From the NCBI RefSeq assembly GCF_014854695.1, contig NZ_CP027557.1:620001-684000 (forward strand): a stretch of 64,000 nt of DNA, in the 5' to 3' direction. This DNA comes from Rhodococcus rhodochrous. GTDB taxonomy: Bacteria; Actinomycetota; Actinomycetes; Mycobacteriales; Mycobacteriaceae. Position numbers and translations under genes: made by a program. Below are positions 29,082 through 55,257 of this stretch, in pieces. The first letter of the stretch is position 1, and each line of letters begins with the position of its first letter. A model generated the notes under the pieces. That model was not told where the DNA came from. It made no database searches and saw only the letters and a list, made by a program, of their open reading frames with translations.

Positions 29082-29111
29082 GTACCGAACCAAGCGATTG
29101 CTTGGTAAGTT
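29082..29111. promoter_or_regulatory. KstR2 operator/promoter segment upstream of echA20 (left copy of a 30-bp repeat)
   Basis: Contains ACCAAGCGATTGCTTGGT (29089-29106), 7-bp arms around GATT, matching the KstR2 operator type. The whole 30-bp segment 29082-29111 is repeated identically, in the same orientation, at 55228-55257. It lies between echA20 (minus) and the FadA3-like thiolase (plus), so it can control both. Confidence 0.82.
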
Positions 29112-29187
29112 AGCACAGGATAGCCGCCGGACCCAGAGGGTCGAAGGGTCGTAGGGTCGAAGTACGACCGAACATCGAGGAGAGAAG

Positions 29188-30405
29188 ATGCCCGAAGCAG
29201 TAATCGTGTCCGCAGTACGGTCGCCGATCGGCCGAGCGCGTAAGGGCTCGCTCGCGTCGATCCGTCCGGACGACCTCGCGACGCAGATGGTCGCCGCAGC
29301 GCTCGCGAAGGTTCCCGAGCTCGATCCCGCCGAGATCGACGACCTCATGCTCGGTTGCGGCCAGCCCGCAGGCCAGTCCGGCTTCAACATCGCGCGTGTC
29401 GTGGCGGTCCAGCTCGGCTACGACTTCCTGCCGGGTGTCACCGTCAACCGCTACTGCTCGTCGTCGCTGCAGACCACCCGCATGGCGCTGCACGCCATCA
29501 AGGCCGGCGAGGGCGACGTGTTCGTCTCGGCCGGCGTCGAGTCGGTGTCGAGCTTCGTCACCGGCAACGCCGACGGACTGCCGAATACGAAGAACCCGCT
29601 GTTCGACGACGCGCAGGCGCGCAGTGCGAAGCTCGCCGAGGGTGGCGTGGCGTGGACCGACCCGCGCAACGAAGGCCTGCTTCCGGACGTCTACCTCGGC
29701 ATGGGGCAGACCGCCGAGAACGTCGCCTCGCACACCGGCATCTCCCGCGAGGACCAGGACCGCTGGGGCGTGCGTTCGCACAACCGGGCCGAGGAAGCCA
29801 TCAAGAGCGGCTTCTTCGAGCGCGAGATCACCCCGGTGACCCTCGCCGACGGCACCGTCGTGTCCACCGACGACGGTCCGCGTCCGGGCACCACCTACGA
29901 GGCGGTCAGCCAGCTGAAGCCGGTCTTCCGCCCCGACGGCACCGTGACCGCCGGCAACGCCTGCCCGCTCAACGACGGTGCGGCCGCCCTGGTGATCATG
30001 TCCGACACCAAGGCGAAAGAACTCGGGCTGACCCCGCTCGCACGTGTCGTCTCCACCGGTGTCTCGGGCCTGTCCCCGGAGATCATGGGCCTCGGACCGA
30101 TCGACGCGACCCGCAAGGCTCTGGCCAACGCGAACATGGGAATCGACGACATCGACCTGTTCGAGATCAACGAGGCCTTCGCCGTCCAGGTCCTCGGTTC
30201 CGCTCGTGAACTCGGTATCGACGAGGACAAGCTCAACGTCAACGGCGGCGCGATCGCGCTCGGTCACCCCTTCGGAATGACCGGTGCCCGCATCACCACG
30301 ACACTCATCAACAACCTGCGCACCCACGACAAGCAGTTCGGTGTCGAGACGATGTGCGTCGGTGGAGGCCAGGGCATGGCGATGGTGCTCGAGCGGTTGA
30401 GCTGA
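29188..30405 (+). CDS. Acetyl-CoA acyltransferase (FadA3-like thiolase)
   Basis: A 405-aa thiolase closest in character to mycobacterial FadA3 (Rv1074c). Cys90 in VNRYCSSSLQ is the nucleophile, GHPFGMTG supplies the histidine and TMCVGGGQG the second cysteine. It starts at an ATG with an AGGAGAG ribosome site, downstream of the left 30-bp KstR2 segment. It lies at the edge of the steroid module and could perform thiolysis of a C5-type side chain, a job FadA5 does for cholesterol; this is inference. A general beta-oxidation role is the alternative. Confidence 0.86.
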   Translation: MPEAVIVSAVRSPIGRARKGSLASIRPDDLATQMVAAALAKVPELDPAEIDDLMLGCGQPAGQSGFNIARVVAVQLGYDFLPGVTVNRYCSSSLQTTRMALHAIKAGEGDVFVSAGVESVSSFVTGNADGLPNTKNPLFDDAQARSAKLAEGGVAWTDPRNEGLLPDVYLGMGQTAENVASHTGISREDQDRWGVRSHNRAEEAIKSGFFEREITPVTLADGTVVSTDDGPRPGTTYEAVSQLKPVFRPDGTVTAGNACPLNDGAAALVIMSDTKAKELGLTPLARVVSTGVSGLSPEIMGLGPIDATRKALANANMGIDDIDLFEINEAFAVQVLGSARELGIDEDKLNVNGGAIALGHPFGMTGARITTTLINNLRTHDKQFGVETMCVGGGQGMAMVLERLS

Positions 30406-30417
30406 GCCGACCCCGTT

Positions 30418-30449
30418 CGGGTGGGCCGGGCTCCGGCCCGGTCCACCCG
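30418..30449. terminator. Hairpin between convergent thiolase and CoA-ligase genes
   Basis: CGGGTGG/CCACCCG and CGGGC/GCCCG arms form a GC-rich stem with a small tetraloop, 13 bp after the thiolase stop and 28 bp from the end of the convergent ligase gene. It is probably a bidirectional terminator. Confidence 0.6.
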
Positions 30450-30477
30450 GTGGCGCTCGTGAGGCGCAGGCGTGCGG

Positions 30478-32157
30478 TTACCAGGGTCCGGACGTGTCGC
30501 GCCATCCCTTGCGGATGATCTTCCCAGTAGCGTTGCGCGGCAACAGGGAGGACGTCAGCGTCCACTGCGTCGGCACCTTGAAGTATGCGAGATGCTCGGA
30601 AGCGAAAGTCGTCAATTCCTCGACGGTGACCGTGGAGCCTTCGACGAGCACGACCACCGCCGCCACCTCCTGACCCCATTCCGGGTGGGGAGCGCCGGTC
30701 ACCATGCATTCGCGGACCGCCGGGTGCAGGGAGAGGACGCGTTCGACCTCCGACGGGTAGACATTTTCGCCGTTCTGGTGGATGAGGTCGGCGCGCCGGC
30801 CCACCAGACGCAGCCGGCCGTTCTCCACAACTCCGAAATCACCTGTGCGCAACCAGCGGTCGGGCGTGATCGCCTCGGCTGTCGCGGCTTCGTCGTCCCA
30901 GTAGCCGAGCATGACGAAGGGGCTGCGCACACACACCTCACCCACGCGGCCGTCGGGCAGCCATGCGCCGGTCTGATCCCGGATCTCGAGGCTCACCGTG
31001 ATGATCGGCGCGCCCACCGTGCCGGGGAACTCCTCGAGTTCGGCGGCAGAGGCCACCGCGATCGACGTGCTGCACTCGGTGATGGTGTAGCTGTCGACCA
31101 TGGCGTGCTTGCCGAACGGGAGCCGCTCGCGCAGACGCTGCTTGAACTCGGGTGTCGACGGTTCCGAGGACAGGGTGAAGCGTGTCAGCGAGGTCAGGTC
31201 GTATCTGTCGAGGTCTTCGTCCTCGAGCATCCGCGCCGCCATCGACGGCACGGCCATCCAATGGGTGACCTGCTCCGCTTCGATGAGTTCGAGCACGGGA
31301 TGTACCCCGTACCATCCCTGATTCATCACCACGGTGCTGCCGGTGGCCAGGCGCGGCACGATCGTGTTGTGCAGGCTCGTGATGTGGAACAGCGAGGACG
31401 TCAGCAGATATCTGGAGTCCGACGGCACCGACCGGTCGTATGCAGCCCCGGTCCAGATCGTCGCGATCGCGTCGAGGTACCGGTGGTAGTCGACCACCGC
31501 CAGCAGATTCCGTTGCGAGTGCAACGCACCTTTGGGGTCGCCGCTCGTGCCCGAGGTGTACAGGAGAACGGCGGGATCGTCCTCGGCGACCCGCGGCGGC
31601 GGCGGTTGCGCGCCGTCGAACTCCGCGACCAGCCGCGGTAGATCCTCCTCGATCGACAACACCACGGTCTGCGCACGATCGATGCCGGCGACGGCCGCGG
31701 TACGCGGACCGTCGACGAACACCACCCGCGGTCGCGAATGGCGGATACCGAACTCCAGTTCCGGCTGGACCCACCAGGCGTTCAATCCCACCGAGATCGC
31801 GCCGAGGGCCTGTGTCGCCCAGAACGCGGTGACCCATTCGGGTCTGTTCGCCGACAGGATCGCCACGCGGTCGCCCGAGCGCACCCCGTACCGCTCGTGC
31901 AGGGCTGCGGCGAGGGCGTAGGACATGCGTGCGTTCTGGGCGAAGGTGATCCGGCGATCGGCGGTGACCAGGTACTCGCGGTCGCCCCAGACGAGGGACT
32001 GCGAGAGCAGATCCGCCACGGCGACGTCACGTTTACGCATGACGGGCATCGCGGTGCCCAGGACTTCCTGCACGACGATCTCGAACTCGCCGCCGGGGCC
32101 GGTGAGGCGCGATACCAGCTGATCGAGGAAATGGGAGGGATCGGACGGGATGGTCAT
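30478..32157 (-). CDS. AMP-dependent acyl-CoA synthetase (steroid side-chain type)
   Basis: An acyl-CoA synthetase of 559 aa. The motifs are [17 protein letters not shown] (phosphate loop), [11 protein letters not shown] (adenine motif), [33 protein letters not shown] (hinge) and [12 protein letters not shown] (catalytic Lys). The ATG at 32157 starts MTIPSDPS; an upstream in-frame extension lacks coding character. It is divergent from the hydratase gene at 32393. Rhodococcal steroid clusters contain dedicated ligases for short acyl side chains (for example the CasG/CasI group for cholate); this could be one, but the substrate is not decided by sequence. Confidence 0.84.
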
Positions 32158-32392
32158 CGCCTGTATCCCACCGGTGTCCCTGCACGCTTCACGAACGTCC
32201 CCTCCTCCATCGAGTGCGTACCGCCAGAATCTCACGACGGGTCACCCCGACCTCGAATGTACCGGTGAGTGGGACGGGCGGTGACGGTCACCACCGCTCT
32301 CCCTAGCCTGTGACCTGGGCGTCTGTGGAAAGCGAGGTCCTGTCTCCGTCGGGCCGCCGCCCGGCGCCCCCATGAGAAAGGACTGAGATCGA

Positions 32393-33202
32393 ATGACCGC
32401 AACGACGTCGACGCCCGCGCAGTGGCGAGGCCACGACCTGGGTGCCCGCACGGTCCGATACGACGAACGGGACGCGATCCTGTACGCGCTCGCGGTGGGC
32501 GCCGGTGCGACGGACCTCGACCTCGTGTTCGAAGAGCGGCTGCGGGTACTGCCGACGTTCGCTCTGACGCTGGCCCAGTGGGCACCGGATGCGCTCGGTG
32601 CGCTCGGTGCCTTCGACACGTCCACCGCGCTCCACGGCTCCCAGAGCCTCGAGGTGCTCGCACCGTTGCCGCGTTCCGGGGAGATCGCGATGTCGGCGCG
32701 CGTCGGTGAGGTCTGGGACAAGGGCCGGGCGGCGGTGTTCGAGGTCGTCGTCGAGAGCGAGTTCTTCGTCGCGACCTGGTCGTTGTTCGCACCGGGAGCG
32801 GGAGGTTTCGGCGGCGAGCGCGGACCGTCGGCGCCGGCTGCGCCGGAGGGGGAGGCCGACCTGGTCGGCACGCTCACCACCCACGCCGACCAGGCCGCGC
32901 TCTACCGGCTGACCGGCGACCGGCACCACATCCACATCGATCCCGAGGCCGCAGCGCGAATCGGACAGCCCCGCCCGATCCTGCACGGACTGTGCACGCT
33001 CGCCGCCGCGACGCTGCCCCTGGCCGACATGCTCGGAGCGCACCCGGCTGATCTGACGATGCTGTTCGGGCGGTTCGCGGCCCCCGTCTTCCCGGGCGAT
33101 GCGGCACAGGTCCGCGCCTGGGGTGACGCAGCGGATGCCCGCTTCGACGTCGTCACGGAGACCGGCGCCGTTCTGTCCGGCGGTCGCGCCGCTTTCGCTT
33201 GA
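32393..33202 (+). CDS. MaoC-type double hot-dog enoyl-CoA hydratase (ChsH3-like)
   Basis: A 269-aa (R)-specific enoyl-CoA hydratase 2 with tandem hot-dog folds. The C-terminal catalytic motif is TGDRHHIHIDPEAA, containing the Asp/His dyad of hydratase 2 enzymes. N-terminal segments RVLPTFALTLAQW, VLAPLPRSGEI and VWDKGRAAVFE resemble M. tuberculosis Rv3538 (ChsH3), the hydratase for the first cycle of steroid side-chain beta-oxidation. It is followed by the FadD17-like ligase, kshA, a small Cys protein and an SDR in one plus-strand operon, which supports a steroid function. Confidence 0.85.
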   Translation: MTATTSTPAQWRGHDLGARTVRYDERDAILYALAVGAGATDLDLVFEERLRVLPTFALTLAQWAPDALGALGAFDTSTALHGSQSLEVLAPLPRSGEIAMSARVGEVWDKGRAAVFEVVVESEFFVATWSLFAPGAGGFGGERGPSAPAAPEGEADLVGTLTTHADQAALYRLTGDRHHIHIDPEAAARIGQPRPILHGLCTLAAATLPLADMLGAHPADLTMLFGRFAAPVFPGDAAQVRAWGDAADARFDVVTETGAVLSGGRAAFA

Positions 33203-33228
33203 TCGCCACAACCGTCTGGAGGAAAGAC

Positions 33229-34908
33229 TTGGACACGTTCGCAGAAGTAGTGCGCGCTCGTCACGGTGACCCGAAGGTGGGGTTGCGTTTCGAGGACCAG
33301 CAGTGGACCTGGGGCGAGGTGGTCCAGGAAAGTGCCGATCGTGCCGCCGCGATCGTGGCGACCGTGCCCGCCCCGGCAGATCGGCAGCGTCATATCGGGA
33401 TACTTCTCGAGAACGTCCCGGATTTCGTGTTCTGGATCGGTGCGGGCGCTCTGGCCGGGGCGGCCGTGGTGGGTATCAACGCCAGCCGTAGCGGTCCGGA
33501 GATCGCCCGGGACATCCGGCACGCGGATATCGACCTCGTGGTCACCGAGTCCCGCCTCGCCCATCTCCTCGAGGGCACCGACCACGGGTTGCCCGCCGAC
33601 AGGATCTACGACATCGACGACGCGCGGTACGGGCAGTTCCTCGAGCCGTTCCGCGGCGCGGACCTGCCGGGGACCATCCCGTCCGCCGACGACATCGCGC
33701 TGCTGCTGTTCAGTTCCGGGTCCACCGGTGCCCCGAAGGCCGTCATCGTCGGTCAGGGACGATTCGCCCGACTCCTCGGGCCGCTGACCGAGCGTGTGCG
33801 CATGCGCGAGGATTCGGTGGCCTATCTGTGCATGCCGCTCTTCCACGGGAACGCGCTCATGCTCAACCTCGGCACGGCCATGCATGCCGGCGCGACCGTC
33901 TGTCTGATCCGGAAGTTCTCGGCGAGCAGATTCGCCTCCGACGTCCACCGTTACGGCGCCACCTTCGTCAATTATGTCGGACGCGCCCTGTCGTACATCC
34001 TGAGTCGGCCGGAGGACCCCCGTGACCGCGCGAGCACCCTCGAACTCGCGTTCGGCACCGAGGCGTCCGAAGCCGACGTGGCCCGCTTCTCCGAACGCTT
34101 CGGCTGCACGGTCGTCGAGGGTTACGGCATGAGCGAAGGTGTCTTCCGCATCAACCGCACCCCCGACACTCCGACCGGATCGCTCGGCGTCGCCGTCGGA
34201 GGTGTCGACGTCCGGATCCTCGACGAGGACACGGGGCAGGAGTGCCCTCGCGCCCGTTTCGACGAGACCGGTCGTCTCCTCAACAGTGACGCCGTCGGTC
34301 AGATCGTCGCGTGTGGTGCCGCCCACACCTTCGAGGGCTACTACAAGAATCCCGAGGCGATGGCCGACCGGGTCAAGGGCGACGATTTCTGGTCGGGGGA
34401 CCTCGGGTACCGCGACGAGAACGGCTTCTTCTACTTCGCCGGAAGATCCTCCGACTGGCTTCGCGTGGACAGCGAGAACTTCTCCGCCACCCCGGTCGAG
34501 CGCATCATCCTGCGGGTGCCGGGCGTTCTGTCCGCCCCGGTCTTCGCCGTGCCCGATCCCACGACCGGAGATCAGGTCATGTGCGCCGTCGAACTCGAGC
34601 CCGGTGCGGAGTTCGATCCGGTGGTCTTCGGGGCGACCCTCGCCGAGCAGCCCGACATGGGTGACAAGTGGTGGCCGCGATTCGTGCGCGTCACCGACCG
34701 GATCCCGCTGACGGGGAGCAACAAGGTGAACAAGGCTCCGTTGCGGGCGGTCGCGTGGAACACCTCCGACACGGTCTACGTGCGTGTCGGACGGACCTCC
34801 GAGTACGTGCTGCTCGACGACGCGGAACGCGCACGCATCGAGAAGGAGTTCGTCGCCAACGGCCGAGCGGCCCTGATGCCGACCGCCGAGCCTGCCCCGG
34901 TTGCGTGA
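33229..34908 (+). CDS. AMP-dependent acyl-CoA synthetase, FadD17-like
   Basis: This 559-aa ligase is most similar in character to FadD17 of the mycobacterial cholesterol locus. Shared features include LLFSSGSTGAPKAVIV, the MPLFHGNALMLNLG segment, RKFSASRFASDVHRYGATFVNYVG, VEGYGMSEG and SGDLGYRDENGFFYFAGRSSDWLRVDSEN. The start is the TTG at 33229, because a strong GGAGGAAAG ribosome site ends three bases before it; an in-frame TTG at 33199 would overlap the preceding gene without such a site. FadD17/CasI-type enzymes activate shortened steroid side chains. The second ligase at 30478 gives the module two such enzymes. Confidence 0.85.
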   Translation: MDTFAEVVRARHGDPKVGLRFEDQQWTWGEVVQESADRAAAIVATVPAPADRQRHIGILLENVPDFVFWIGAGALAGAAVVGINASRSGPEIARDIRHADIDLVVTESRLAHLLEGTDHGLPADRIYDIDDARYGQFLEPFRGADLPGTIPSADDIALLLFSSGSTGAPKAVIVGQGRFARLLGPLTERVRMREDSVAYLCMPLFHGNALMLNLGTAMHAGATVCLIRKFSASRFASDVHRYGATFVNYVGRALSYILSRPEDPRDRASTLELAFGTEASEADVARFSERFGCTVVEGYGMSEGVFRINRTPDTPTGSLGVAVGGVDVRILDEDTGQECPRARFDETGRLLNSDAVGQIVACGAAHTFEGYYKNPEAMADRVKGDDFWSGDLGYRDENGFFYFAGRSSDWLRVDSENFSATPVERIILRVPGVLSAPVFAVPDPTTGDQVMCAVELEPGAEFDPVVFGATLAEQPDMGDKWWPRFVRVTDRIPLTGSNKVNKAPLRAVAWNTSDTVYVRVGRTSEYVLLDDAERARIEKEFVANGRAALMPTAEPAPVA

Positions 34909-34970
34909 TCGCGACCCGGCGCGGTCTCAGGACGGCGGAAGGTCTCGACCAGTGAGATGTCCTCATCAGG

Positions 34971-34986
34971 GGTGATACCGATCACC
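34971..34986. promoter_or_regulatory. Palindrome upstream of kshA
   Basis: GGTGATACCGATCACC has 6-bp arms around ACCG and is followed by CTAGCG, a possible -10 element. It lies 90 bp upstream of the kshA start in an otherwise empty 167-bp gap. A regulatory role is only a suggestion. Confidence 0.35.
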
Positions 34987-35075
34987 TAGCGTTTCGGTCG
35001 TATCGCGACGGAATGCTCCAGCGGACTCCGCCGCCTGACCTCCTCAACGCTTCCCTCCCGAAAGGACGGACGACC

Positions 35076-36236
35076 GTGAGCATCGGCACTTCCGAACAAT
35101 CCGAGATCCGCGAGATCGTCGCCGGGTCGGCTCCCGCCCGCTTCGCCCGAGGCTGGCACTGCCTCGGTCTGTCGAAGGATTTCAAGGACGGCAAGCCGCA
35201 CTCGATCGAGGCCTTCGGGACCAAGCTCGTGGTGTGGGCCGACAGCAACGACGAGATCAAGATCCTCGACGCGTACTGCCGGCACATGGGTGGGGATCTC
35301 AGCCAGGGCACGGTCAAGGGCGACGAGATCGCGTGTCCGTTCCACGATTGGCGCTGGGGCGGAAACGGGCGCTGCAAGAACATCCCGTACGCGCGGCGCG
35401 TTCCTCCCATCGCCAAGACCCGTGCGTGGCACACCCTCGATCAGGACGGCATGCTCTTCGTGTGGCACGACCCTCAGGGGAACCCGCCGCCCGCCGACGT
35501 GACCATCCCGCGCATCGAAGGCGCGACGAGCGACGAGTGGACCGACTGGGTCTGGTACACCACCGAGGTCGACACCAACTGCCGGGAGATCATCGACAAC
35601 ATCGTCGACATGGCGCACTTCTTCTACGTGCACTACTCCTTCCCGGTCTACTTCAAGAACGTCTTCGAAGGCCAGGTGGCCAGCCAGTTCATGCGAGGCC
35701 AGGCCCGTGAGGACACCCGTCCGCACGCGGCAGGACAACCGAAGATGCTCGGAAGCCGCTCCGACGCAAGCTACTTCGGACCGTCCTTCATGATCGACGA
35801 TCTCGTCTACCAGTACGAGGGTTACGACGTCGAGTCGGTCCTCATCAACTGCCACTACCCGGTCTCCCAGGACAAGTTCGTCCTGATGTACGGCATGATC
35901 GTCAAGAAGTCCGACCGCCTCGAAGGCGAGCAGGCCCTGGAGACCGCCCAGCAGTTCGGGAACTTCATCGCGAAGGGCTTCGAGCAGGACATCGAGATCT
36001 GGCGGAACAAGACCCGTATCGACAACCCGCTCCTGTGCGAGGAGGACGGCCCGGTCTACCAGCTGCGACGCTGGTACGAGCAGTTCTACGTCGACGTCGA
36101 GGACGTCGAGCCGGCGATGACCGACCGCTTCGAGTTCGAGATGGACACCACCCGCCCGGTGGCCGCCTGGATGAAGGAAGTCGAGGAGAACATCGCCCGC
36201 AAGGCCCTCGAAGAGCAGTCCACCCCTGCGGGCTAG
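35076..36236 (+). CDS. kshA: 3-ketosteroid 9α-hydroxylase, oxygenase component KshA
   Basis: A 386-aa Rieske non-haem iron oxygenase. The [2Fe-2S] ligands are Cys68-X-His70 and Cys87-X2-His90. The mononuclear iron ligands are His181 and His186 in VDMAHFFYVHYSFP and Asp305 in FEQDIEIW, practically the same numbering as characterised rhodococcal KshA proteins. KshA hydroxylates C9 of 3-ketosteroids, triggering ring-B opening; electrons come from KshB (minus strand, 37545-38597). The start is GTG 35076 after AAAGGA. Rhodococci usually hold several kshA homologues with different substrate ranges; this copy lies in a module that looks specialised. Confidence 0.93.
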   Translation: MSIGTSEQSEIREIVAGSAPARFARGWHCLGLSKDFKDGKPHSIEAFGTKLVVWADSNDEIKILDAYCRHMGGDLSQGTVKGDEIACPFHDWRWGGNGRCKNIPYARRVPPIAKTRAWHTLDQDGMLFVWHDPQGNPPPADVTIPRIEGATSDEWTDWVWYTTEVDTNCREIIDNIVDMAHFFYVHYSFPVYFKNVFEGQVASQFMRGQAREDTRPHAAGQPKMLGSRSDASYFGPSFMIDDLVYQYEGYDVESVLINCHYPVSQDKFVLMYGMIVKKSDRLEGEQALETAQQFGNFIAKGFEQDIEIWRNKTRIDNPLLCEEDGPVYQLRRWYEQFYVDVEDVEPAMTDRFEFEMDTTRPVAAWMKEVEENIARKALEEQSTPAG

Positions 36237-36247
36237 GAGCGGAGAAC

Positions 36248-36517: not shown

Positions 36518-36566
36518 CCGTTCCCTTCCGACCTTCCGCTCCCGACTACTTCTCGAAGGACCGACG

Positions 36567-37370: not shown

Positions 37371-37392
37371 TCCGCGCGATCCCCACCTACTC

Positions 37393-37422: not shown

Positions 37423-37490
37423 GCTCCATTTCACGACGCTGCGTCGTACGCGGAGTGCATCCGTTCCCGCACGATCTCGCCCGGACGGAC

Positions 37491-37527: not shown

Positions 37528-37544
37528 GGTTCGCTACGGTCGGT

Positions 37545-47051: not shown

Positions 47052-47209
47052 GCATCGGCGATGCCTTTTCGTAGGTGCTCGCTCCGAATTTCTCGAACAG
47101 CGGGAACTTCCCGACGTCGATCCGGAATGCCGTTTACGGTCCGGAGGGATCACCCGACCCCCGTGCGGAACAGTCTGCCGCGCATCGCTATCGGAAGGAA
47201 CTTCCTCCC

Positions 47210-48676
47210 ATGAGCACTTCCCCGGTCCGTCCCGTCCCCGTCCGCGACATCGGAAGCTGGGACCTCGAAGCCGATGTCGTGGTCGCCGGTTTCGGTATCG
47301 CCGGTGTCTCCGCCGCGATCGGTGCGGCCGAGAGCGGAGCGGACGTGCTGGTGCTCGAACGCACCGGCGGTGGCGGGGGAGCAGCCGCCCTGTCGGGCGG
47401 GATCGTCTATCTCGGCGGCGGCACCCGGTTGCAGAAGGCCTGCGGGTTCGACGACACCCCGGAGAACATGAAGACCTTCCTCGCCGCGGCTCTCGGACCG
47501 GGTGTCGACGAGGACAAGCTCGACGTCTACTGCCAGGGCAGCGTCGACCACTTCGACTGGCTCGAAGCGTGCGGGGTGCCCTACAAGGAGAGCTTCTGGT
47601 CGCAGCCCGGCTGGGAGTGCCCTGTCGACGATTCGCTGATGTACAGCGGTGGAGAGAACGCTGCGCCGTTCCACACGCTCGTCGAACCCGCTCCGCGCGG
47701 ACATCTCGCCCAGGTGACCATGCCGCGCAACGGAGAGCAGGCCGCCGGCTACGTGCTCATGACCACCCTCATCGCCAAGGCGGCCGAGGTCGGCGTCCGC
47801 GTCGAATCCGACGTCCGGGTGCAGCGACTCGTCGTCGACGAAACCGGGCGGGTCGTGGGCATCGTCGCCACGCGGTTCGGTGGGACCATCGCGGTCCGGG
47901 CGCGCGGCGGCGTCGTGCTCGCCACCGGATCGTTCGCCTACAACGACGAGATGATGCAGGCGTACGCGCCGCGGCTCTACCAGCGTCCTGCGGCGACCGT
48001 CGAGGAACACGACGGTCGCGGCATCCTGATGGCCCAGGCTCTCGGCGCACGACTGGCACACATGGACGCGTGCGAGGTCGCCTTCTTCTGCGATCCCCAG
48101 CTGATCGCACGCGGCATCCTCGTCAACGGTCGCGGTCAGCGTTACGTCGCCGAGGACACCTATCCCGGCCGCGTCGGTCAGCTCACCATGTACCAGAACG
48201 ACAACCAGGCGTTCCTCGTCCTCGACGAACAGGCCTACGAGGAGGGCATGGCGGCGCCGAGTTCGAGTCCGCAGCTGCGTCACCGGCCCACCTGGGTGTG
48301 TGAGACGGTCGCCGAACTCGAATCCGAGATGGGACTGCCCGCGGGTGCACTGACCGCGACGGTGGAGTTGTACAACAAGCACGCCGAGCAGAGGACGGAT
48401 CCGGTCCTCGGGAAGAAGCCCGAGTGGGTGCGGCCGATCGGTTCCCCGATCGCGGCGATCGACCTGCGGAACATGACCGGCGGTTTCACCCTGGGCGGCC
48501 TGCAGACCTCGGTCGACTCGGAGGTCCTGCACGTGGACGGCGATCCGATCCCCGGCCTGTATGCGGCGGGTCGCTGCACGTCCGGTCTGTCGGCCTGGGG
48601 TTACTGCAGCGGTATCTCGCTCGGCGACGGCAGCTTCTTCGGGCGGCGGGCCGGCATCCGCGCAGCCGCCTCGTAG
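47210..48676 (+). CDS. kst4D: FAD-dependent 3-ketosteroid Δ4-dehydrogenase (Kst4D-like)
   Basis: A 488-aa flavoprotein. The N-terminal Rossmann motif is VVVAGFGIAGVSAAIGAAESGADVLVLER, and the C-terminal segment is GLYAAGRCTSGLSAWGYCSGISLGDG. Residues Tyr318, Tyr465 and Ser467 line up, with an offset of one, with the catalytic Tyr319, Tyr466 and Ser468 reported for R. jostii Kst4D (489 aa), which introduces a Δ4 double bond into 3-keto-5α-steroids. In a bile-acid type pathway an equivalent enzyme would act on 3-keto steroids of the 5β series. It starts at ATG 47210 after GGAAGGAA, about 158 bp after hsaA copy 2. Δ1-dehydrogenation is the alternative activity. Confidence 0.82.
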   Translation: MSTSPVRPVPVRDIGSWDLEADVVVAGFGIAGVSAAIGAAESGADVLVLERTGGGGGAAALSGGIVYLGGGTRLQKACGFDDTPENMKTFLAAALGPGVDEDKLDVYCQGSVDHFDWLEACGVPYKESFWSQPGWECPVDDSLMYSGGENAAPFHTLVEPAPRGHLAQVTMPRNGEQAAGYVLMTTLIAKAAEVGVRVESDVRVQRLVVDETGRVVGIVATRFGGTIAVRARGGVVLATGSFAYNDEMMQAYAPRLYQRPAATVEEHDGRGILMAQALGARLAHMDACEVAFFCDPQLIARGILVNGRGQRYVAEDTYPGRVGQLTMYQNDNQAFLVLDEQAYEEGMAAPSSSPQLRHRPTWVCETVAELESEMGLPAGALTATVELYNKHAEQRTDPVLGKKPEWVRPIGSPIAAIDLRNMTGGFTLGGLQTSVDSEVLHVDGDPIPGLYAAGRCTSGLSAWGYCSGISLGDGSFFGRRAGIRAAAS

Positions 48677-48726
48677 ACGACGGGATGTGCGTGCGGTGCT
48701 CGTCCATCGCACGCACACCTTCCCCG

Positions 48727-49247
48727 TCAGCGGCCGAGGTCGAACCCGCCGCGGTAGAACACCATCGGGCTCTCGTCGCCGAGGCATTCGAGTTCGGCGA
48801 CGCGGCCGATGACGACATCGTGATCACCTGCTACGTGCACGTCCTCGATCGAGGCGTGCACCCGCATGAGCACACCCGGTAGGGACGGGGTGCCCCAGCG
48901 GGAGAGCTCCCAGTCGAGGCCGTCGAACTTGAGACCGCGGCTCGAACCGAACCGGGAGCACAGATCGGTCTGGTTCGCACCGAGCACGTTGACGGTGAAC
49001 CGGCCGGTGCGGCGAAGTCGCGGCCAAGCTCGTCCGCGGTGATCGGCGCAGAACAGCACGAGGGGCGGCTCGAGCGAGACCGACGCGAACGACTGGCACG
49101 CGAAGCCGGTGGGGCCGTCCTCGTCGAGGCCGGTCACGACGGTGACGCCGCTCGCGAAGCGCCCCATGGCGCGGCGCATCTCGTCCGGGCCGGGCCGGGC
49201 ACGTCGACGTCGAACTCGGCTTCGTAGGTCGGTATCCGGGTCTGCAT
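48727..49247 (-). CDS. hsaB: HsaB-type flavin reductase, with apparent N-terminal frameshift
   Basis: A short-chain flavin reductase that supplies FMNH2 to HsaA. The body (MRRAMGRFASGVTVVTG, FACQSFASVSLEPPLVLFCAD, GRFTVNVLGANQTDLCSRFG, then DHDVVIGRVAEL and PMVFYRGG) is typical HsaB/NADH:FMN oxidoreductase and is open from 49179 to the stop at 48727 (150 aa). However, an ATG at 49247 with GGAG eight bases before it begins a codon-biased, HsaB-like N-terminus (MQTRIPTYEAEFDVD) in another frame. The frames join only if one base is missing in the CCCGG repeat near 49190-49205. This could be a sequencing error or a real frameshift with restart at 49179. Confidence 0.72.
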
Positions 49248-49485
49248 GTGACTCACTCCGATTCGCTCTGGTCGCTGCCTCCGGCGACGTCCTTCGAATC
49301 GAGCGTATGGGTGACGCGTGACACCTCGGAACGGCTTCTCGCTGAGTGGACTTCCTGCCGGAACGACCCGGGTCGGCGAGGCCCCGAGCTCCCACCGTTC
49401 GGGACCGCAGAAAAACCGCGATGCGACAATCTGCCCGACGGCGCGGGACAGAAACGACGGGCCGTCATCGTGGAAAGGGGAACCG
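49248..49485. promoter_or_regulatory. Divergent promoter region between hsaB and the kstR-like gene
   Basis: This 238-bp region lies between two divergent starts. No KstR consensus was found in it. The segment 49336-49355 resembles 43615-43634 (upstream of hsaA copy 1) at 16 of 20 positions, and more loosely 47090-47111 (upstream of the Kst4D-like gene), so it may hold an operator of the module. Confidence 0.4.
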
Positions 49486-50091
49486 GTGCCCAGAATCGGT
49501 AAGGCGCGGGACGGAGCCGAGCCGACCTCGGCCGAGCAGCGGCGACGGCAGGTGCGGATCCTCGAGGCCGCAGCACGGCTGGGATCCGAACACGAACTGG
49601 CCCGCGTGCAGATGACCGAGGTCGCGAAGAGTGCCGGGGTGGCGATCGGGACCCTCTACCGGTACTTCCCGTCGAAGACGCACCTGTTCGTGGCGGTGCT
49701 GCTCCACCGGCTCGAACTCGGCGCGGATCGGTTGCCGGCGCGGAAACCGGGTATGAGTGCCCGGGATGCGATCACCGAGGTGCTGATCGAGATGACCAGG
49801 CGGTTCGTCGACCGGCCTCTCCTGGCCTCCGCGATGTTGCTGTCCAACAGCACCGCCCCCGCGGCGGTGGTGCCGGATTCCGAAGAGGTGAGGCGGACGT
49901 TCCACCGCATCCTGTTCGACAAGGCGGGCCTCGACGACCCGACCGAACAGGATCGGAACGCCGTGCGGCTGCTGTCGATGATGTGGTCCGGTCTGCTGGT
50001 CGCGTATCTCAACGGTGCAGCGACGCTCGAGGAGACCGAGGCGGACGTGCGGAGCAGCTGCGAGCTGTTGCTCGTCCATCTGACGGAATAG
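49486..50091 (+). CDS. TetR-family regulator related to KstR
   Basis: A 201-aa TetR protein starting at a GTG after GGAAAGGGG. The DNA-binding domain (QRRRQVRILEAAARLGS, VQMTEVAKSAGVAIGTLYRYFPSKTHLF) strongly resembles KstR, the repressor of cholesterol uptake and ring genes, but the ligand domain is diverged and the gene is embedded in the module, divergent from hsaB. Rhodococci carry KstR paralogues (KstR3-type) beside secondary steroid clusters. A repressor specific for this module is likely; its operator is not identified, though a candidate shared sequence lies at 49336-49355 upstream. Confidence 0.85.
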   Translation: MPRIGKARDGAEPTSAEQRRRQVRILEAAARLGSEHELARVQMTEVAKSAGVAIGTLYRYFPSKTHLFVAVLLHRLELGADRLPARKPGMSARDAITEVLIEMTRRFVDRPLLASAMLLSNSTAPAAVVPDSEEVRRTFHRILFDKAGLDDPTEQDRNAVRLLSMMWSGLLVAYLNGAATLEETEADVRSSCELLLVHLTE

Positions 50092-50162: not shown

Positions 50163-51293
50163 CTATCCGGCGGCGCCGATCGAGGGTGCGGTGTCGAGGA
50201 CGTCCCCGAGCGCAGCGGCGGTCGCGTCCGCCCCGCCGAAGGTGAACGCCAACTGCCGTCCCCACAGGAAGTAGCGGTGGATCGGGTAGTCGATGTCGGC
50301 GCCGATACCACCGTGCAGGTGCTGGCCGGTCAGACCGACCCGCACACCGCCGCGGGATGCCCACCACTTGGCGACCAGGGCCGCGGACTCGGCTTCGTCC
50401 TCGCGTCCGACGTCGATCAACCATGCCGCCTTGCGCACCGTGAGCCGGATCGCTTCGGTGTCGAGGTAGGCGTCGGCCGCGCGCACCGCGACAGCCTGAT
50501 TCGTGGACAACGGGCGGCCGAACTGCACGCGTTCGGAGGTGTACTTGGCCGTCGCCCGCAGCGTCTCCTCGCACACCCCGAGCTGAACGGCAGCAAGAGC
50601 GATGCGGATACGACGACGGGTCCAGGCCGCGATCTCCTCACCGTCACCGGGCAGGACGTCCTCGGCTCCGATGTGCACGTCCGTGAAGCGCACCGCCGCT
50701 TCGGCGCCACGTCCGGTCACGGCGACCGGGACAGCCTCGACGCCGGTCGCGTCCACCGGCGCCACCACCACGGCGACCGAGTCGTCGTCACAGCGGACCG
50801 GGACGACGACGCCGGCGATGATGGGAGCCCACGGAACGGACGGAATCTCACCGCTGATGACGAGGTCGTCGCCCTTGCGGATCGCGGTCACGGTGGGGCT
50901 CGCGCCCGGAGTGTCGTCGAACGCGCCGGTCAGGACGACCGACCCGTCGATGAGCTTCGGAACGTAACGCTCGACCTGGGTTTCCGTGCCGAACTGTGCG
51001 AGCGGAAGAGCCGCACCGGCCACAGTGGACCACACGGGAACGGGGGCGACGCGACGGCCCTGCTGCTGCAGGATCGTCGTGAGCCCGAGCATGCCCATGC
51101 CGGCGCCGCCGACGGACTCGGGTAGAGCGAGTCCGAGGAGCCCGGCGTCGGCGAGTGCCTGCCACAGGGTGGCGTCGAAGCCGCCTTCCTTGCGCTCCAC
51201 CTCGACCACACGCTCGACCTTGGCCAGCGAACCGAAGACCTGCGACGCGAGGTCCTCGACCGCGATCAGGTCGTCATCGAGTTCGAATTCCAT
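50163..51293 (-). CDS. chsE1: Acyl-CoA dehydrogenase subunit, ChsE1/FadE28-like
   Basis: A 376-aa acyl-CoA dehydrogenase subunit of the heterotetrameric steroid type. The helix YTSERVQFGRPLSTNQAVAVRAAD and the C-terminal GQHLHGGIGADIDYPIHRYFLW resemble FadE28 (Rv3544c). In M. tuberculosis FadE28-FadE29 dehydrogenates 3-oxo-4-pregnene-20-carboxyl-CoA, the three-carbon side-chain step. Only one nucleotide separates it from the ChsE2-like gene, and its GAGGAG ribosome site lies inside that gene. It is the last gene of the six-gene minus-strand side-chain operon starting at 55113. Confidence 0.86.
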   Translation of the reverse strand: MEFELDDDLIAVEDLASQVFGSLAKVERVVEVERKEGGFDATLWQALADAGLLGLALPESVGGAGMGMLGLTTILQQQGRRVAPVPVWSTVAGAALPLAQFGTETQVERYVPKLIDGSVVLTGAFDDTPGASPTVTAIRKGDDLVISGEIPSVPWAPIIAGVVVPVRCDDDSVAVVVAPVDATGVEAVPVAVTGRGAEAAVRFTDVHIGAEDVLPGDGEEIAAWTRRRIRIALAAVQLGVCEETLRATAKYTSERVQFGRPLSTNQAVAVRAADAYLDTEAIRLTVRKAAWLIDVGREDEAESAALVAKWWASRGGVRVGLTGQHLHGGIGADIDYPIHRYFLWGRQLAFTFGGADATAAALGDVLDTAPSIGAAG

Positions 51294-51294
51294 G

Positions 51295-52527
51295 TCAGCT
51301 CCTCGTCTCGGCCGGCGTCTTCACCGCAGCCTGTGCCGTCGCGTCGGGGCGCCTACGGGCGCCCAGGGTCATTCCGAGGGTCTTCGCCGCCACGATCTCG
51401 CGCATCACCTCGTTGCTGCCACCACCGAAGGTGTTGTTCTGCGCGCGTCGGCCGAGCGCTTCGACGCGGCCTTCGATCACGGCGCCGTGGCTACCGGGAC
51501 GCAGCAGACCGCGGGCGCCGAGCACCTCCTGCAACATGCCGTAGGCCGCGACCACGCCCTCGGTTCCGAACACCTTCGCCGCGGCGGAGTCGCCACCGTC
51601 GAGGGTGTTGGCCGCGATGTCCGACACCAGACGCAGGTTCACCAGGTCGGCGGCCGACAACAGCGCGTAGACCTCGGCCAGAGTCGAACGGACCCACGGG
51701 ACGTCGAACAGCACGCCGGGGCCGAAGGGCTCCTGCTTCGCCCAGGCGAGCACCTCGTCGTACATCTCGTTGGCGATGCCACCGCGGGCGGCCAGCGCGA
51801 CACGCTCGTGGTTGAGCTGGCTCGTGATCAGGGTCCAGCCGCCGTTGAGCTCGCCGACGACGTTGCTCAGCGGAACGCGGATGTTCTCGTAGTACGTGAC
51901 CGCCGTGCTGATTCCGCCGACGGTCTGGATCTCGGTGGCGGAGAAGCCCGGCGACGAGGTCGGCACGAGCACGACCGAGATCCCCTTGTGGCGGGGCGCG
52001 TCCGGATCGGTGCGCACGGCGAGCCAGATCCAGTCGGCGAAGATGGCCGAACTCGTGAACAGCTTGTTGCCGTCGATGACGAGTTCGTCACCGTCGATGC
52101 GGGCCCGCGTCTGGAGCGCGGCGAGGTCGGTGCCGGCGCCGGGCTCGGTGTACCCGATCGCGAACTTCAGTTCACCCGTGAGGATCTTGGGAAGGAAGAA
52201 GTCCTTCTGCTCCTGCGTGCCGTACTTCATCAGTGCCGGGGCGACGGTGTTGAGCGTGACCAACGAGACCGGCGCGCCGGCGCGGATCGTCTCGTCGTAG
52301 AAGACGTAGAGCGCCTCAGGGTCCTCACCACGTCCGCCGTACTCCTCGGGCCATCCCAGGCCGAGCCAGCCGTCGGCGCCCATCTGCCGGTAGATCTTGT
52401 CGAAGACCGGTCCACCCTCGGTCTGATCGACCAGGGCGCGTCGATCGTCGTCGTCGATGATGCGGGCGAAGTACTCCCGCAGTTCGGTGCGCAGCCGCCG
52501 TGACTTGTCGGACAGCTCGGGATGCAT
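51295..52527 (-). CDS. chsE2: Acyl-CoA dehydrogenase subunit, ChsE2/FadE29-like
   Basis: A 410-aa partner of the preceding FadE subunit. FadE29-like stretches include LRTELREYFARII, GWLGLGWPEEYGGRG, KFAIGYTEPGAGTDLAALQTRA, the TYYENIRVP segment and FGGGSNEVMREIVAAKTLGM near the C-terminus. With ChsE1 it forms an alpha2-beta2 dehydrogenase whose FAD sites are split between subunits; the product is a Δ17(20)- or Δ20-type enoyl-CoA hydrated by ChsH1-ChsH2. The C-terminal tail (about 25 residues, Arg/Ala/Thr-rich) is longer than in M. tuberculosis. Its gene lies 39 bp downstream of ltp2. Confidence 0.87.
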   Translation of the reverse strand: MHPELSDKSRRLRTELREYFARIIDDDDRRALVDQTEGGPVFDKIYRQMGADGWLGLGWPEEYGGRGEDPEALYVFYDETIRAGAPVSLVTLNTVAPALMKYGTQEQKDFFLPKILTGELKFAIGYTEPGAGTDLAALQTRARIDGDELVIDGNKLFTSSAIFADWIWLAVRTDPDAPRHKGISVVLVPTSSPGFSATEIQTVGGISTAVTYYENIRVPLSNVVGELNGGWTLITSQLNHERVALAARGGIANEMYDEVLAWAKQEPFGPGVLFDVPWVRSTLAEVYALLSAADLVNLRLVSDIAANTLDGGDSAAAKVFGTEGVVAAYGMLQEVLGARGLLRPGSHGAVIEGRVEALGRRAQNNTFGGGSNEVMREIVAAKTLGMTLGARRRPDATAQAAVKTPAETRS

Positions 52528-52566
52528 GTGGTCTCCTGAGAGGTGGTCGGGGCCCGGGTTGCGGGC

Positions 52567-53751
52567 CTAACGGTCGGCCGAGAGGACGATCGCGCTGTGC
52601 GGCACCGGCGATCCGCCTGTGACGAGCACGTTGTCGAGTGTCTTCGCCGGCTGGTTCACGGAGGTGCCGCGGATGAGCCGGACGCCTTCGGCGATGCCGT
52701 TGACGCCGTGGATGTAGCCTTCACCGAGCTGACCGCCGTGGGTGTTGATCGGCAGTCGCCCGTCCACCTCGAGGTTGCCGTCGGCGATGAAGTCCTTCGC
52801 CTCACCGCGACCGCAGAAGCCGTACTCCTCGAGCTGGAGCAGGACCATGGGGGTGAACGCGTCGTACAGGATCGCGGCGTCGATACCTTCGGGGCCGAAA
52901 CCGGCCTGTGCCCACATCTGCCGGGCGACGAGCTCCACCTCGGGCATCGCGTCGATGTCCTTGCGGTAGTAGCTGCTCATCGAGATCTGCTGAGGGCCGA
53001 CACCCTGCGCTGCAGCGGTGATGATCGCCGGCGGGTGCGGAAGATCCCGTGCGCGTTCGGCACTCACGATGACCAGTGCCTGGCCGCCGTCGCTCTCCTG
53101 GCAGCAGTCCAGCAGACGCAGCGGGTCGGCGAGCATCCGCGAGTTCTGGTGGTCGTCGAGGGTGATGGGCCGCTCGTAGAACCAGGCCTTGGGATTGTTC
53201 GCCGCGTGCTTGCGCGAGAGCACCGAGATCTGCCCGAAGTCCGCGCTGGTCGCCCCGTACTTGTGCATGTAGGTGCGGGCCAGGAAGGCTTCCTGCTGAG
53301 CGGGAGTGAGCAGACCGTACGGGTTGATCCAGTTCCGGTATTCCTGGTCGGTGCTGGAGTTGTACGCGAAGGGCGGCGGCCCGGCGCCGAAACGATGGCC
53401 CGAGCGCTCGTTGAAGGCGCGATAGACGACCACGACGTCGGCGACACCGCTCGAGACGGCGAGGGCGGCCTGCTGCACGGGCGCGCAGGCGCCGCCACCG
53501 CCGTGCGGGATCCGGCTGAAGAACTTCAGTTCCGGGATGCCGAGCGCGCGGGCGACGGCGATCTCGGGGTTGGTCTCCATGGTGAACAGCGCGAAGCCGT
53601 CGACCTCTTCGACGCCGATCTGCGCGTCCTCGAGAGCGGCGAGGACCGACTCGCACGCGAGTTGCCATTCGCTGCGGCCGGAGTTCTTGGAGAATTCGGT
53701 GGCTCCGATACCGGCGATAGCGGCGGCTCCGGAGAAGCCCTTGACGGTCAT
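52567..53751 (-). CDS. ltp2: Steroid side-chain aldolase Ltp2 (thiolase superfamily)
   Basis: A 394-aa SCP-X/thiolase-fold protein. In characterised Ltp2, which with the DUF35 domain of ChsH2 performs retro-aldol cleavage of the 17-hydroxy-C3 side chain giving propionyl-CoA, the catalytic residues are Tyr294 and Tyr344. The corresponding residues here are Tyr296 (ILYDAFT) and Tyr346 (GEGYIHGVNG), an offset of two at both. The canonical thiolase catalytic motifs GHP and CxGG are missing. The ATG overlaps the chsH1 stop by 4 nt, and the separate DUF35 gene lies one gene upstream. Confidence 0.89.
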   Translation of the reverse strand: MTVKGFSGAAAIAGIGATEFSKNSGRSEWQLACESVLAALEDAQIGVEEVDGFALFTMETNPEIAVARALGIPELKFFSRIPHGGGGACAPVQQAALAVSSGVADVVVVYRAFNERSGHRFGAGPPPFAYNSSTDQEYRNWINPYGLLTPAQQEAFLARTYMHKYGATSADFGQISVLSRKHAANNPKAWFYERPITLDDHQNSRMLADPLRLLDCCQESDGGQALVIVSAERARDLPHPPAIITAAAQGVGPQQISMSSYYRKDIDAMPEVELVARQMWAQAGFGPEGIDAAILYDAFTPMVLLQLEEYGFCGRGEAKDFIADGNLEVDGRLPINTHGGQLGEGYIHGVNGIAEGVRLIRGTSVNQPAKTLDNVLVTGGSPVPHSAIVLSADR

Positions 53752-54158
53752 CGGCTCTTCCTCTCGTAGGGCTCCACCACGACCTCGGCGGTGACGTGGA
53801 CGCCTCTGCTGTTGCGGCCCTGCACCTTCAGGGTGACGGCCGCGCCGTCGACTGCGGTCACCTCACCGTTCATGTGCATGGGGTCGCCGGGGAAGCAGGG
53901 CACGCCCAGGCGCAGCGACGCGCGGCGTACACGCGCCGACGGCCCGGTCCAGTCGGTGACGTACCGGTCGACGAAACCGTTGGTGGCGTTGATGCTCATG
54001 AACACGTCCGGGGTGCCGCGTCCGAGTGCGGCAGCCGGGTCGTGATGCACGTCCTCGAAATCCTGTGACGCGATCGCGGTGGCCACGATGGTCGTGCGAT
54101 CCATCGGCAGGACGAGCTCGGGAAGCGACTGTCCGACAGTGCATTCGGTGAGATTCAT
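53748..54158 (-). CDS. chsH1: MaoC-type enoyl-CoA hydratase subunit ChsH1
   Basis: A 136-aa single hot-dog MaoC-like subunit. Asp33 and His38 in SQDFEDVHHDP have the D-X4-H spacing of the catalytic pair assigned to ChsH1 (Asp29, His34 in M. tuberculosis). With ChsH2 it hydrates the C17 side-chain enoyl-CoA to the tertiary alcohol cleaved by Ltp2. The start MNLTECTVGQ at 54158 overlaps the stop of the DUF35 gene (ATGA), and its own stop overlaps ltp2. The frame is open further upstream inside the DUF35 gene but without hot-dog sequence. Confidence 0.88.
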   Translation of the reverse strand: MNLTECTVGQSLPELVLPMDRTTIVATAIASQDFEDVHHDPAAALGRGTPDVFMSINATNGFVDRYVTDWTGPSARVRRASLRLGVPCFPGDPMHMNGEVTAVDGAAVTLKVQGRNSRGVHVTAEVVVEPYERKSR

Positions 54159-54562
54159 GCTTCTCCTCCGGGCTTGCGCAGCTGGGGCAGGATCTCGCCG
54201 TGCGCGTGCTCGGAGAATCCCACCTCGAGTTCCATGCCGATCTCGAGGGTGTCGTGGTCGACGCCCGCGATGTCGGCGACGATGCGGATTCCTTCGTCGA
54301 GGTCGATCAGCCCGACGGCGAGCGGGTACTCGAAGGCCGGATCCTGCGGGTGGTGGATGATCGTCCAGCTGTGAAGCGTTCCGCGCCGCGAGGATTCGAC
54401 GGTCTTCCACTCGAACGAGCGGCACGCGGGGCAGGCCGGGCCCGGGGGATGGCGCAGAGTGCCGCAGTCGCTGCACTGCTGGATCTCGAGTCGGCCCTCA
54501 CGGACGGCGTCGAACCAGAACTGGTTGTCCTGGGTGATGGTGAGCCGGGGGACGGCGGTCAT
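54155..54562 (-). CDS. DUF35 zinc-ribbon/OB-fold protein, equivalent to ChsH2 C-terminal domain
   Basis: A 135-aa protein with the DUF35 layout: a helical hairpin (NQFWFDAVREGRLEIQ), a rubredoxin-like zinc ribbon with CSDCGTLRHPPGPACPAC (two CxxC pairs), then an OB-fold with FEYPLAVGLIDLDEGIRIVADI. In M. tuberculosis this domain is fused behind the MaoC domain in ChsH2 (Rv3542c) and forms the aldolase with Ltp2; here it is a free-standing gene overlapping the MaoC gene (4 nt) and chsH1 (4 nt). The tight coupling suggests a complex of all four proteins. Confidence 0.88.
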   Translation of the reverse strand: MTAVPRLTITQDNQFWFDAVREGRLEIQQCSDCGTLRHPPGPACPACRSFEWKTVESSRRGTLHSWTIIHHPQDPAFEYPLAVGLIDLDEGIRIVADIAGVDHDTLEIGMELEVGFSEHAHGEILPQLRKPGGEA

Positions 54563-55113
54563 CGCGTCTCCTTGTCGGTGTTCGGGTTGAACCGGAGCAT
54601 CCGGAAGCGTTCCTCAGCGACGACTTCGCCGTTCTGGTCCTCGTAGCGCTTGTACAGCGTGAAGAATCGGCCGTCGCCGAGACCCGTTCGCTTGATCTCC
54701 GATACGGACTCGATCGTGTAGTGGGCGGTGATGTGATCGCCCGGGACGAGTTCGCGGTGGTAGTCCTGCTCGACGTTCGTCGCCACGACGGAGGTGAAAC
54801 CCTCGCGATCGAGGTCGGCGAGCATCCGGGAGTACGCGAAATCCTCCACGACGCCCTCGGCCCGCTTGCGCTGCACATCACGCCAGCGGCGGTAGCCGGC
54901 CATGATCCAGGTGGAGATCATGGCGGGCGGGCAGACGATGGAGTCGCGCCCGGTTTCGCGGGCGGCCTCGGCGTCGACGTAGATCGGGTTGAAGTCGTCG
55001 TGGGCCTCGACCCAGTTGCGGATCATGGCGTCGTTGACGGCGTACCGGGCCACGCGGGGTGGTTCGGCCACCTGCCCGACGTATTTCTCGTAATCCTGCT
55101 CGACGGTCTGCAT
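54559..55113 (-). CDS. chsH2: MaoC-like subunit, equivalent to ChsH2 N-terminal domain
   Basis: A 184-aa hot-dog protein matching the MaoC half of ChsH2. Instead of the catalytic hydratase motif it has AHDDFNPIYVD, lacking the histidine, as expected for the non-catalytic partner that shapes the site with ChsH1. It heads the operon chsH2(MaoC)-DUF35-chsH1-ltp2-chsE2-chsE1. The ATG at 55113 has AGGAG about 10 bases upstream; a GTG at 55137 would add eight residues. The right-hand copy of the 30-bp KstR2 segment lies about 115 bp upstream and is shared with the divergent SDR. Confidence 0.86.
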   Translation of the reverse strand: MQTVEQDYEKYVGQVAEPPRVARYAVNDAMIRNWVEAHDDFNPIYVDAEAARETGRDSIVCPPAMISTWIMAGYRRWRDVQRKRAEGVVEDFAYSRMLADLDREGFTSVVATNVEQDYHRELVPGDHITAHYTIESVSEIKRTGLGDGRFFTLYKRYEDQNGEVVAEERFRMLRFNPNTDKETR

Positions 55114-55227
55114 GGCCCAGTCACTCCTCTTCGACACGCGCGTTCGTCGTCACGCTAAGTGGGGCCGACAAGCAAGTTCCCGTGATTCCCACTGAGCAGG
55201 AGCAGTGGCGGAGGACGAGGGGGAGCA

Positions 55228-55257
55228 GTACCGAACCAAGCGATTGCTTGGTAAGTT
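55228..55257. promoter_or_regulatory. KstR2 operator/promoter segment upstream of the Rv3549c-like SDR (right copy of a 30-bp repeat)
   Basis: Contains ACCAAGCGATTGCTTGGT at 55235-55252 and is identical over 30 bp, same orientation, to 29082-29111. It lies between the chsH2 (MaoC) gene on the minus strand and the SDR at 55309 on the plus strand. Confidence 0.82.

Follow-up and report, generated by a model that had tools for sequence, protein, structure and literature searches.

The stretch of DNA analysed here, hereafter the window, comprises 64,000 nucleotides of Rhodococcus rhodochrous (contig NZ_CP027557.1; G000:C1:620001-684000 of a 6.09-Mb genome) and includes genes for degradation of the steroid C/D rings, a locus associated with the regulator KstR2. 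Two direct copies of a 30-bp sequence, each enclosing the 18-bp KstR2-type box ACCAAGCGATTGCTTGGT, lie at 29082-29111 and 55228-55257, and the DNA between them is occupied by an island of further steroid genes (Table 1). An earlier interpretation made from the letters and open reading frames (ORFs) of the window, which we call the sequence-only reading, had proposed that a second steroid pathway was inserted at the operator shared by two divergent genes, echA20 and a short-chain dehydrogenase/reductase (SDR) gene of the Rv3549c type (SDR3549), that the operator was duplicated in the process, and that the outermost new genes thereby came under KstR2. Direct comparison and a genome-wide search confirmed the identity of the copies (30/30 bp), their common orientation and their start-to-start spacing of 26,146 bp, and NCBIfam and Pfam scans on both sides of the boxes agreed with the genes named beside them. 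Each copy sits between divergent genes, with a gene of the regulon on its outer side.

No exact direct repeat in the window is longer than this pair, and the three other exact repeats of at least 20 bp all lie inside pairs of related genes. Exact matches to ACCAAGCGATTGCTTGGT occur in the window only at 29089 and 55235; at up to three mismatches there is one further place, 9203-9220 (two mismatches; chance expectation 0.04 on average), and the whole genome contains close KstR2-type boxes at the same three places and no others. A weight matrix built from the 59 distinct boxes of 80 named echA20 loci (the best 80 of 554; four from the window's genus) gives all three sites scores of at least 28, against maxima of 3.7 to 8.3 in five shuffles, and found nothing else in the window scoring 4 or more, overlapping registers of the same sites aside. 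With 77% identity over 30 bp, the third box is less like the pair than its members are like each other, as had been claimed, and sharing of the 30 bp by most KstR2 boxes of the genome, which would have removed the case for duplication, was not found. The sequence ACCAAGCGATTGCT agrees with the 14-bp motif AnCAAGnnCTTGnT of Kendall 2010 (PMC3068626) at nine of ten fixed positions, and the R. jostii instance given there is the same sequence. We infer that KstR2, encoded in the window, binds the operators and that promoters are used there. The kstR2 gene belongs to a fadE30-ipdF-kstR2-fadA6 run (window 9203-13060), in which the weight matrix found no box of its own; passages of Kendall 2010 describe a separate kstR2 box in R. 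jostii.

The gene content of the island is compatible with a second pathway for the A/B rings and an acid side chain. Its CasG-type synthetase scores 850.4 bits against the cut-off of 750 used to recognise cholate clusters, the CasI type stays below the corresponding cut-off (629.4 against 900), and the HsaB, HsaC and HsaD types are likewise below their respective cut-offs. The island KshA scores 877.9 bits across 381 residues to PDB 4qdf chain B, which we take to be KshA5 of R. rhodochrous. A broad substrate range is described for KshA5 in the part of PMC8228715 consulted. The GC content of the island (0.6745) lies between those of its flanks (0.6743 and 0.6748) and is uninformative on foreign origin, and no transposase or integrase was found among the scanned genes of the window's island, a set short of every ORF. 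Content varies between genomes: three islands (G006, G008, G012) gave no hits for KshB, the second HsaA or KstD4, and the major facilitator superfamily (MFS) gene is missing or inverted in the short islands described below. The island of G001 (L051+L052, G001:C10, approximately 8.9-23.2 kb) has a 14-kb extra segment with a transposase-looking ORF, presumably of the ISL3-type family, and that of G005 (L038+L039, G005:C2) has about 7.5 kb of unrelated-looking genes between KstD4 and HsaB, membrane and CBS-type by eye. The ipd names in Table 1 were assigned by position and by what we take to be the M. tuberculosis order.

Table 1. Operators, flanking operons and island genes in the window.
Feature	Position	Strand	Remarks
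Left operator, 30-bp copy 1	29082..29111		18-bp box 29089-29106; the original echA20 operator; single-site relatives share its outer flank and AGCACA
Right operator, 30-bp copy 2	55228..55257		18-bp box 55235-55252; core unchanged in 13 right copies, flanks at chance
Third KstR2-type box	9203..9220		between fadD3 and fadE30-type gene; outside the duplication
KstR2	11292..11915	+	236 bits to KstR2 of PDB 4w1u; presumed binder of the operators
Old flanking operon echA20-ipdA-ipdB-ipdC	25565..29063	-	EchA20 = 28302-29063
Old flanking operon, two SDR genes (Rv3549c and Rv3548c types)	55309..56996	+	
FadA3-type thiolase	29188..30405	+	behind left operator; native fadA3, apparently placed there in the long-form clade
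Core island	30478..50091		CasG-type CoA synthetase, MaoC hydratase, CasI-like synthetase, KshA, SDR, KshB-like reductase, MFS
Core island (continued)	30478..50091		FMN oxidoreductase, IclR, HsaD, two HsaA types, HsaC, KstD4-like, HsaB, KstR-like TetR
HadA-ChsE operon of the long form	50163..55137	-	HadA-like, ChsH2, unnamed ORF, Ltp2, two acyl-CoA dehydrogenases
Conserved block upstream of HadA operon (GCTCCTGCTCAGTGGGAA ... TAGCGTG)	55151..55203	-	putative promoter region

Relatives without an island indicate what preceded it. At 73 of the 80 named loci SDR3549 is the first recognisable gene opposite echA20, divergent from it around one box, which bears out the shared single site invoked by the sequence-only reading. 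The first gene there is the second SDR in R. erythropolis and Rhodococcus sp. P-2 (2/80), a FadA3-type thiolase in R. coprophilus and Rhodococcus sp. 105337 (2/80), and CasG in Rhodococcus sp. JCM 9791 and R. zopfii (2/80); in the one remaining locus, from a Mycobacterium metagenome-assembled genome (L138), SDR3549 lies 1.7 kb from echA20, with a single box at echA20. Single-box adjacency extends across Mycobacterium, Gordonia, Williamsia, Dietzia, Nocardia and other Rhodococcus, the single-operator arrangement is present in all five outgroup genomes read at length, and outside the window's genus SDR3549 adjoins echA20 at 11 of 12 loci, the twelfth (G030) having the second SDR only. These comparisons support echA20 and the Rv3549c-type SDR around one box as the probable ancestral arrangement. 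At the Mycobacterium locus L138, DNA has been inserted at this same position and no second operator accompanies it. The Rv3549c-type SDR was not found beside the box in the R. erythropolis types (L088, L089), in G003 and G015 or in G030 (L027), and two overlapping box-like matches 4 bp apart occur at echA20 operators of Williamsia, Dietzia and one Mycobacterium (L099, L100, L102-L105, L114, L126).

Within the window's genus, represented by 18 genomes, island genes adjoin echA20 in 16; in the other two, G003 and G015, echA20 is accompanied by one box and the second SDR, and the first SDR and the island are both missing beside the box. We searched 401 genomes of the family, a sample of a larger group, with a 28-mer of the extended operator at up to three mismatches. 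It was present in 64, twice in 15 and once in 49, the other 337 having none at this threshold; all 15 double-operator genomes are island carriers of the window's genus, and in the eight single-operator genomes with a known echA20 position the operator is at echA20. One genome of another genus (G040) has the identical 30-mer once, at echA20. The block thus belongs to one lineage, in which alone the extended operator is double, as insertion at the echA20/SDR divergence would have it; nor do all relatives carry the module here, since G003 and G015 have an empty site and more distant relatives a single box.

The order of events was read from a tree of 22 genomes, built from rpoB together with seven genes near the site as proteins and as first and second codon positions (G004 omitted, its rpoB being broken across frames). 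G003 and G015 fall outside the other 15 genus members (support 99 for proteins; 99/98 for nucleotides), and the genomes with long islands form one clade of nine (97; 98/98), the short-form genomes branching earlier. In short islands, of which both edges are readable in G001, G006, G008, G010 and G012 and the left edge only in G004 and G009, the 3' end of CasG faces the left box and the 3' end of the last gene faces the right box (5/5); this gene is KstR-like except in G001, which has another TetR-like ORF there. The early short islands had no inward-facing gene at either box, and so no new gene was then under either operator. In long islands the FadA3-type thiolase adjoins the left box and the HadA-ChsE operon the right one, both being found only in the long-form clade. 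The insertion and capture supposed to be a single event are thereby separated: the island grew stepwise, with the thiolase and the ChsE/Ltp2 operon arriving later, in one clade. One genome (G011) has a 9.6-kb remnant, internally deleted, with both boxes kept. Every genome with SDR3549 on the stretch had a right box fitting ACCAAGC....GCTTGGT. Counts over 13 genomes, here and below, refer to islands with both edges on the stretch and boxes fitting that pattern (G004, G009 and G013, with edges on different contigs or unread, are omitted); among these the box-to-box distance ranges from 9,583 to 34,058 bp.

The flanks of the two copies suggest which is the older. Comparison of the ten outer-flank bases beside the 30-mer with G003 gives 122 of 130 identical for left copies and 33 of 130 for right ones. 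On their inner side, left copies retain AGCACA at 78 of 78 positions. Since the outer flank and AGCACA have stayed with the left copy, the left operator is, on this comparison, the original and the right an added copy; in a tree of SDR3549 the island genomes stand together, beside other Rhodococcus. Right-copy flanks match at chance level, with only the 30-bp core in common. The 18-bp core of the right copies has not changed at any of 234 positions, and is also unchanged in G013, where it lies on another contig, which suggests that it is under selection and that selection may be why the second copy was kept. The plain on-site duplication of the sequence-only reading does not account well for these flanks: target-site duplication should place ancestral sequence outside each copy, as at the left (122/130), and would leave AGCACA at the right, where it matches at 12 of 78 positions, although drift could explain this. 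Past AGCACA, the inner flank of left copies is no closer to single-site relatives than are shuffles (mean 8.1-8.3 against 6.8-7.0), so that the extent of the copied piece is unreadable; a longer copy that has drifted, a short copy, and a copy carried by incoming DNA each fit the data, which do not distinguish them. A further possibility is that the two boxes are independent and alike only through the sequence that KstR2 demands, and the core is indeed strongly conserved at echA20 across genera. We consider this very improbable, for the fadD3/fadE30 box in this genome has another core and other flanks, whereas the copies have in common the asymmetric CGATTG centre, the orientation and the AAGTT of the echA20 operator, with all 30 bp the same in 6 of 13 genomes. 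AAGTT is kept in 13/13 right copies, in 9/9 left copies of long and remnant islands and in 3/7 left copies of short islands, a pattern among related rows that is suggestive only.

The thiolase gene at the left operator appears to be a native one. Homologue searches for fadA3 and HadA-ChsE covered 17 of 23 genomes (all except G004, G005, G007, G009, G013 and G014). Elsewhere, fadA3 follows shortly after a dehydrogenase gene in all six relatives with readable upstream sequence (in a seventh, G040, the stretch ends at the gene), and there it would presumably lack a promoter of its own; in the window the left operator lies 81 bp upstream. R. coprophilus (G016; L217, G016:C6) has two copies, one behind the dehydrogenase elsewhere and one behind the left operator, and G000, G002, G011 and G017 have fadA3 only behind the box. 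The best match to the partner dehydrogenase is at most 66% in seven long or remnant genomes (G000, G002, G005, G007, G011, G014, G017) and 93-100% in G010, G013 and G016. The fadA3 tree roughly tracks species, with the two copies of G016 grouping together, and the behind-box copies do not form one clade (p-AU 0.019), which gene conversion or repeated placement may explain. Of the proposed capture of both outermost inner genes, the half concerning fadA3 plausibly stands, that gene having been captured by the left box; the half concerning HadA-ChsE is doubtful.

The island-less G003 and G015 have close homologues of the HadA-ChsE operon at a different location, interspersed with extra genes (Ltp2 91-92%). 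In these genomes (L214, G003:C4; L215, G015:C194) HadA is preceded by a GAGCAAGCGCTTGGT site and by a divergent TetR gene resembling KstR2 at 36-40%, so that a KstR2-type regulator may have controlled the operon before its move; the site was not recognisable upstream of HadA in the long islands. According to passages of Kendall 2010 (PMC3068626), GAGCAAGCGCTTGGT also occurs in the M. tuberculosis kstR2 probe. The TetR gene and HadA-ChsE operon of G003 and G015 possibly represent a KstR2 paralogue with its own operon. Whether the operon became a true KstR2 target through the right box, giving capture on both sides, turns on the sequence between them. The likely ATG of the HadA-like gene, at 55113, is 121 bp from the right box, and TACC on the inner flank of that box is kept in 8/8 long or remnant copies against 3/5 short ones, a weak sign in related rows. 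However, the block between HadA and the box is conserved in 8/8 long-form genomes and aligns with the HadA upstream region of G003 and G015, so that the operon probably brought its own promoter, for which 55151-55203 is the likely region; and in the part of Kendall 2010 concerned, regulated genes lie 22-82 bp from the motif and a gene at 285 bp was not regulated. KstR2 control through the right box is accordingly unlikely in our estimation, and the claim that both inner operons were captured is weakened by the same alignment.

The events can be assembled as follows. In the ancestor, echA20 and the SDR operon would have lain divergently on either side of a single KstR2 operator. The window's branch of Rhodococcus would then have received, by insertion just on the SDR side of that operator, a block of steroid genes for the A/B rings and the side chain, with an added copy of the operator core at the far edge of the island, made on the spot or brought in. 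Each copy would serve its outer operon (echA20-ipdABC and the SDR pair), such that the insertion did not cut off KstR2 control. The rightward half of the left operator, geneless at first, would later have been reused by the native fadA3, and the ChsE/Ltp2 operon later added beside the right operator. We regard this account as a whole as probable. Besides the poor match to AGCACA at right copies and the unreadable extent of the copied piece, several points weigh against it. rpoB alone does not contradict the tree but leaves the first split of the genus and the long-form clade unresolved, and the resolved tree includes genes next to the site. The sixteenth island genome, G009, has no extended operator at threshold (its left box is changed and its right edge unread), the right box of G004 has one core change, and no donor was found, the best CasG outside the genus reaching 67% among the matches listed from the 401 family genomes. 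Finally, the direct repeats could recombine, and the absence of the first SDR beside the box in G003 and G015 is what a deletion might leave, as would be expected if the island were ancestral and had been lost elsewhere, for instance by recombination between the boxes. Against such an ancestral island stand the single-box adjacency across six named genus groups of the 80 loci and the retention of both boxes in 13/13 islands with readable edges, including the internally deleted G011; no deletion of the kind suggested for loss of the module was seen, and we consider this alternative the least credible of those weighed here.

Compatible with the preferred account of a single operator, insertion, a second copy and later reuse is a separate question, namely whether the right-hand end of the incoming DNA already bore an echA20-type operator, with no duplication on the spot; such DNA might, for instance, derive from another species' echA20 locus or have entered as a circle with one operator through a single crossover. 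An added element fits a left copy with the ancestral outer side and AGCACA and a right copy with unrelated flanks at least as well as target-site duplication does, and KstR2-like boxes with one mismatch occur in or near related clusters, which are found elsewhere in G003, G015, G026, G027 and G040 (boxes in G026 C7, G040 C9, G003 C4 and G015 C194). These boxes, however, all differ from the echA20-type sequence, 49 of the 64 genomes with the extended operator have one copy of it, and the CasG matches outside the genus are as distant as noted above. We hold a carried-in operator to be less likely than not. A plasmid collection searched with CasG yielded one Nocardia record, at 53%. We also entertained relocation of a known cholate-type cluster in one piece, and rejected it because the island HsaC, HsaA2, SDR36, HsaD and CasG form their own clade apart; the KshA tree alone places G003 and G015 among islands. 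In G040 (L221, G040:C9, 6496), the one-mismatch box lies between SDR3549-like and KshB-like genes, at the end of a cholate-type cluster.

Insertion, operator doubling and promoter reuse are known processes; it is the intermediates that are unusually complete here, with empty, first, enlarged and shrunken islands in sequenced species giving a stepwise case of a divergent regulatory site surviving a large insertion. The doubled operator might even act as a stable slot, in which the outer C/D-ring operons are held, the interior changes (from 9.6 to 34.1 kb across 13 genomes) and the inward half-promoter recruits fadA3, an idea that we offer tentatively, as possible rather than likely. If true, operator doubling would allow a regulon to accept large inserts, keep its old members and gain new ones. 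The analysis also predicts that fadA3, and possibly the ChsE/Ltp2 operon as well, is a new KstR2 target in a group that has uses in steroid biotechnology.

Among known systems, the closest is the KstR2 operator placed by passages of Kendall 2010 (PMC3068626) between Rv3549c and Rv3550 (echA20), with the R. jostii counterpart ro04652/ro04653; electrophoretic mobility shift assays are given there for three M. tuberculosis sites, the R. jostii site having none, and binding is shown for the M. tuberculosis counterpart. The R. jostii site, ACCGAACCAAGCGATTGCTTGGTA, is identical to both window copies at 24 of 24 bases, and its flanking genes are likewise divergent and of the same regulon, but the loci in those passages have one site between adjacent genes whereas the window has two, 26 kb apart, with a gene island between. 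The operator region of 29 nucleotides mentioned in PMC8228715, as far as consulted, is near the 30 bp found here. A published description of such a two-operator island in a C/D-ring locus was not found in the titles, abstracts and passages covered; Fig. 5c of PMC6498646, which draws R. ruber steroid clusters, might show part of one. With the Rhodococcus cas cluster the island has in common a CasG above the curated cut-off, KshA, Hsa and ChsE/Ltp2-type genes. According to the part of Bergstrand 2016 (PMC4810484) consulted, Rhodococcus cholate genes are remote from the cholesterol cluster and without C/D-ring genes, R. equi being an exception; the block described here departs from that picture in that it occupies the C/D-ring (KstR2) locus itself, flanked by echA20 and the SDR pair, and its CasG stands in a clade apart from those of other clusters. 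Transposition with target-site duplication offers the other comparison: it, too, leaves direct repeats at both edges of an insertion, but in the window the repeat is an operator core, its flanks do not suit a plain duplication unless they have drifted, and the scanned island genes include no transposase.

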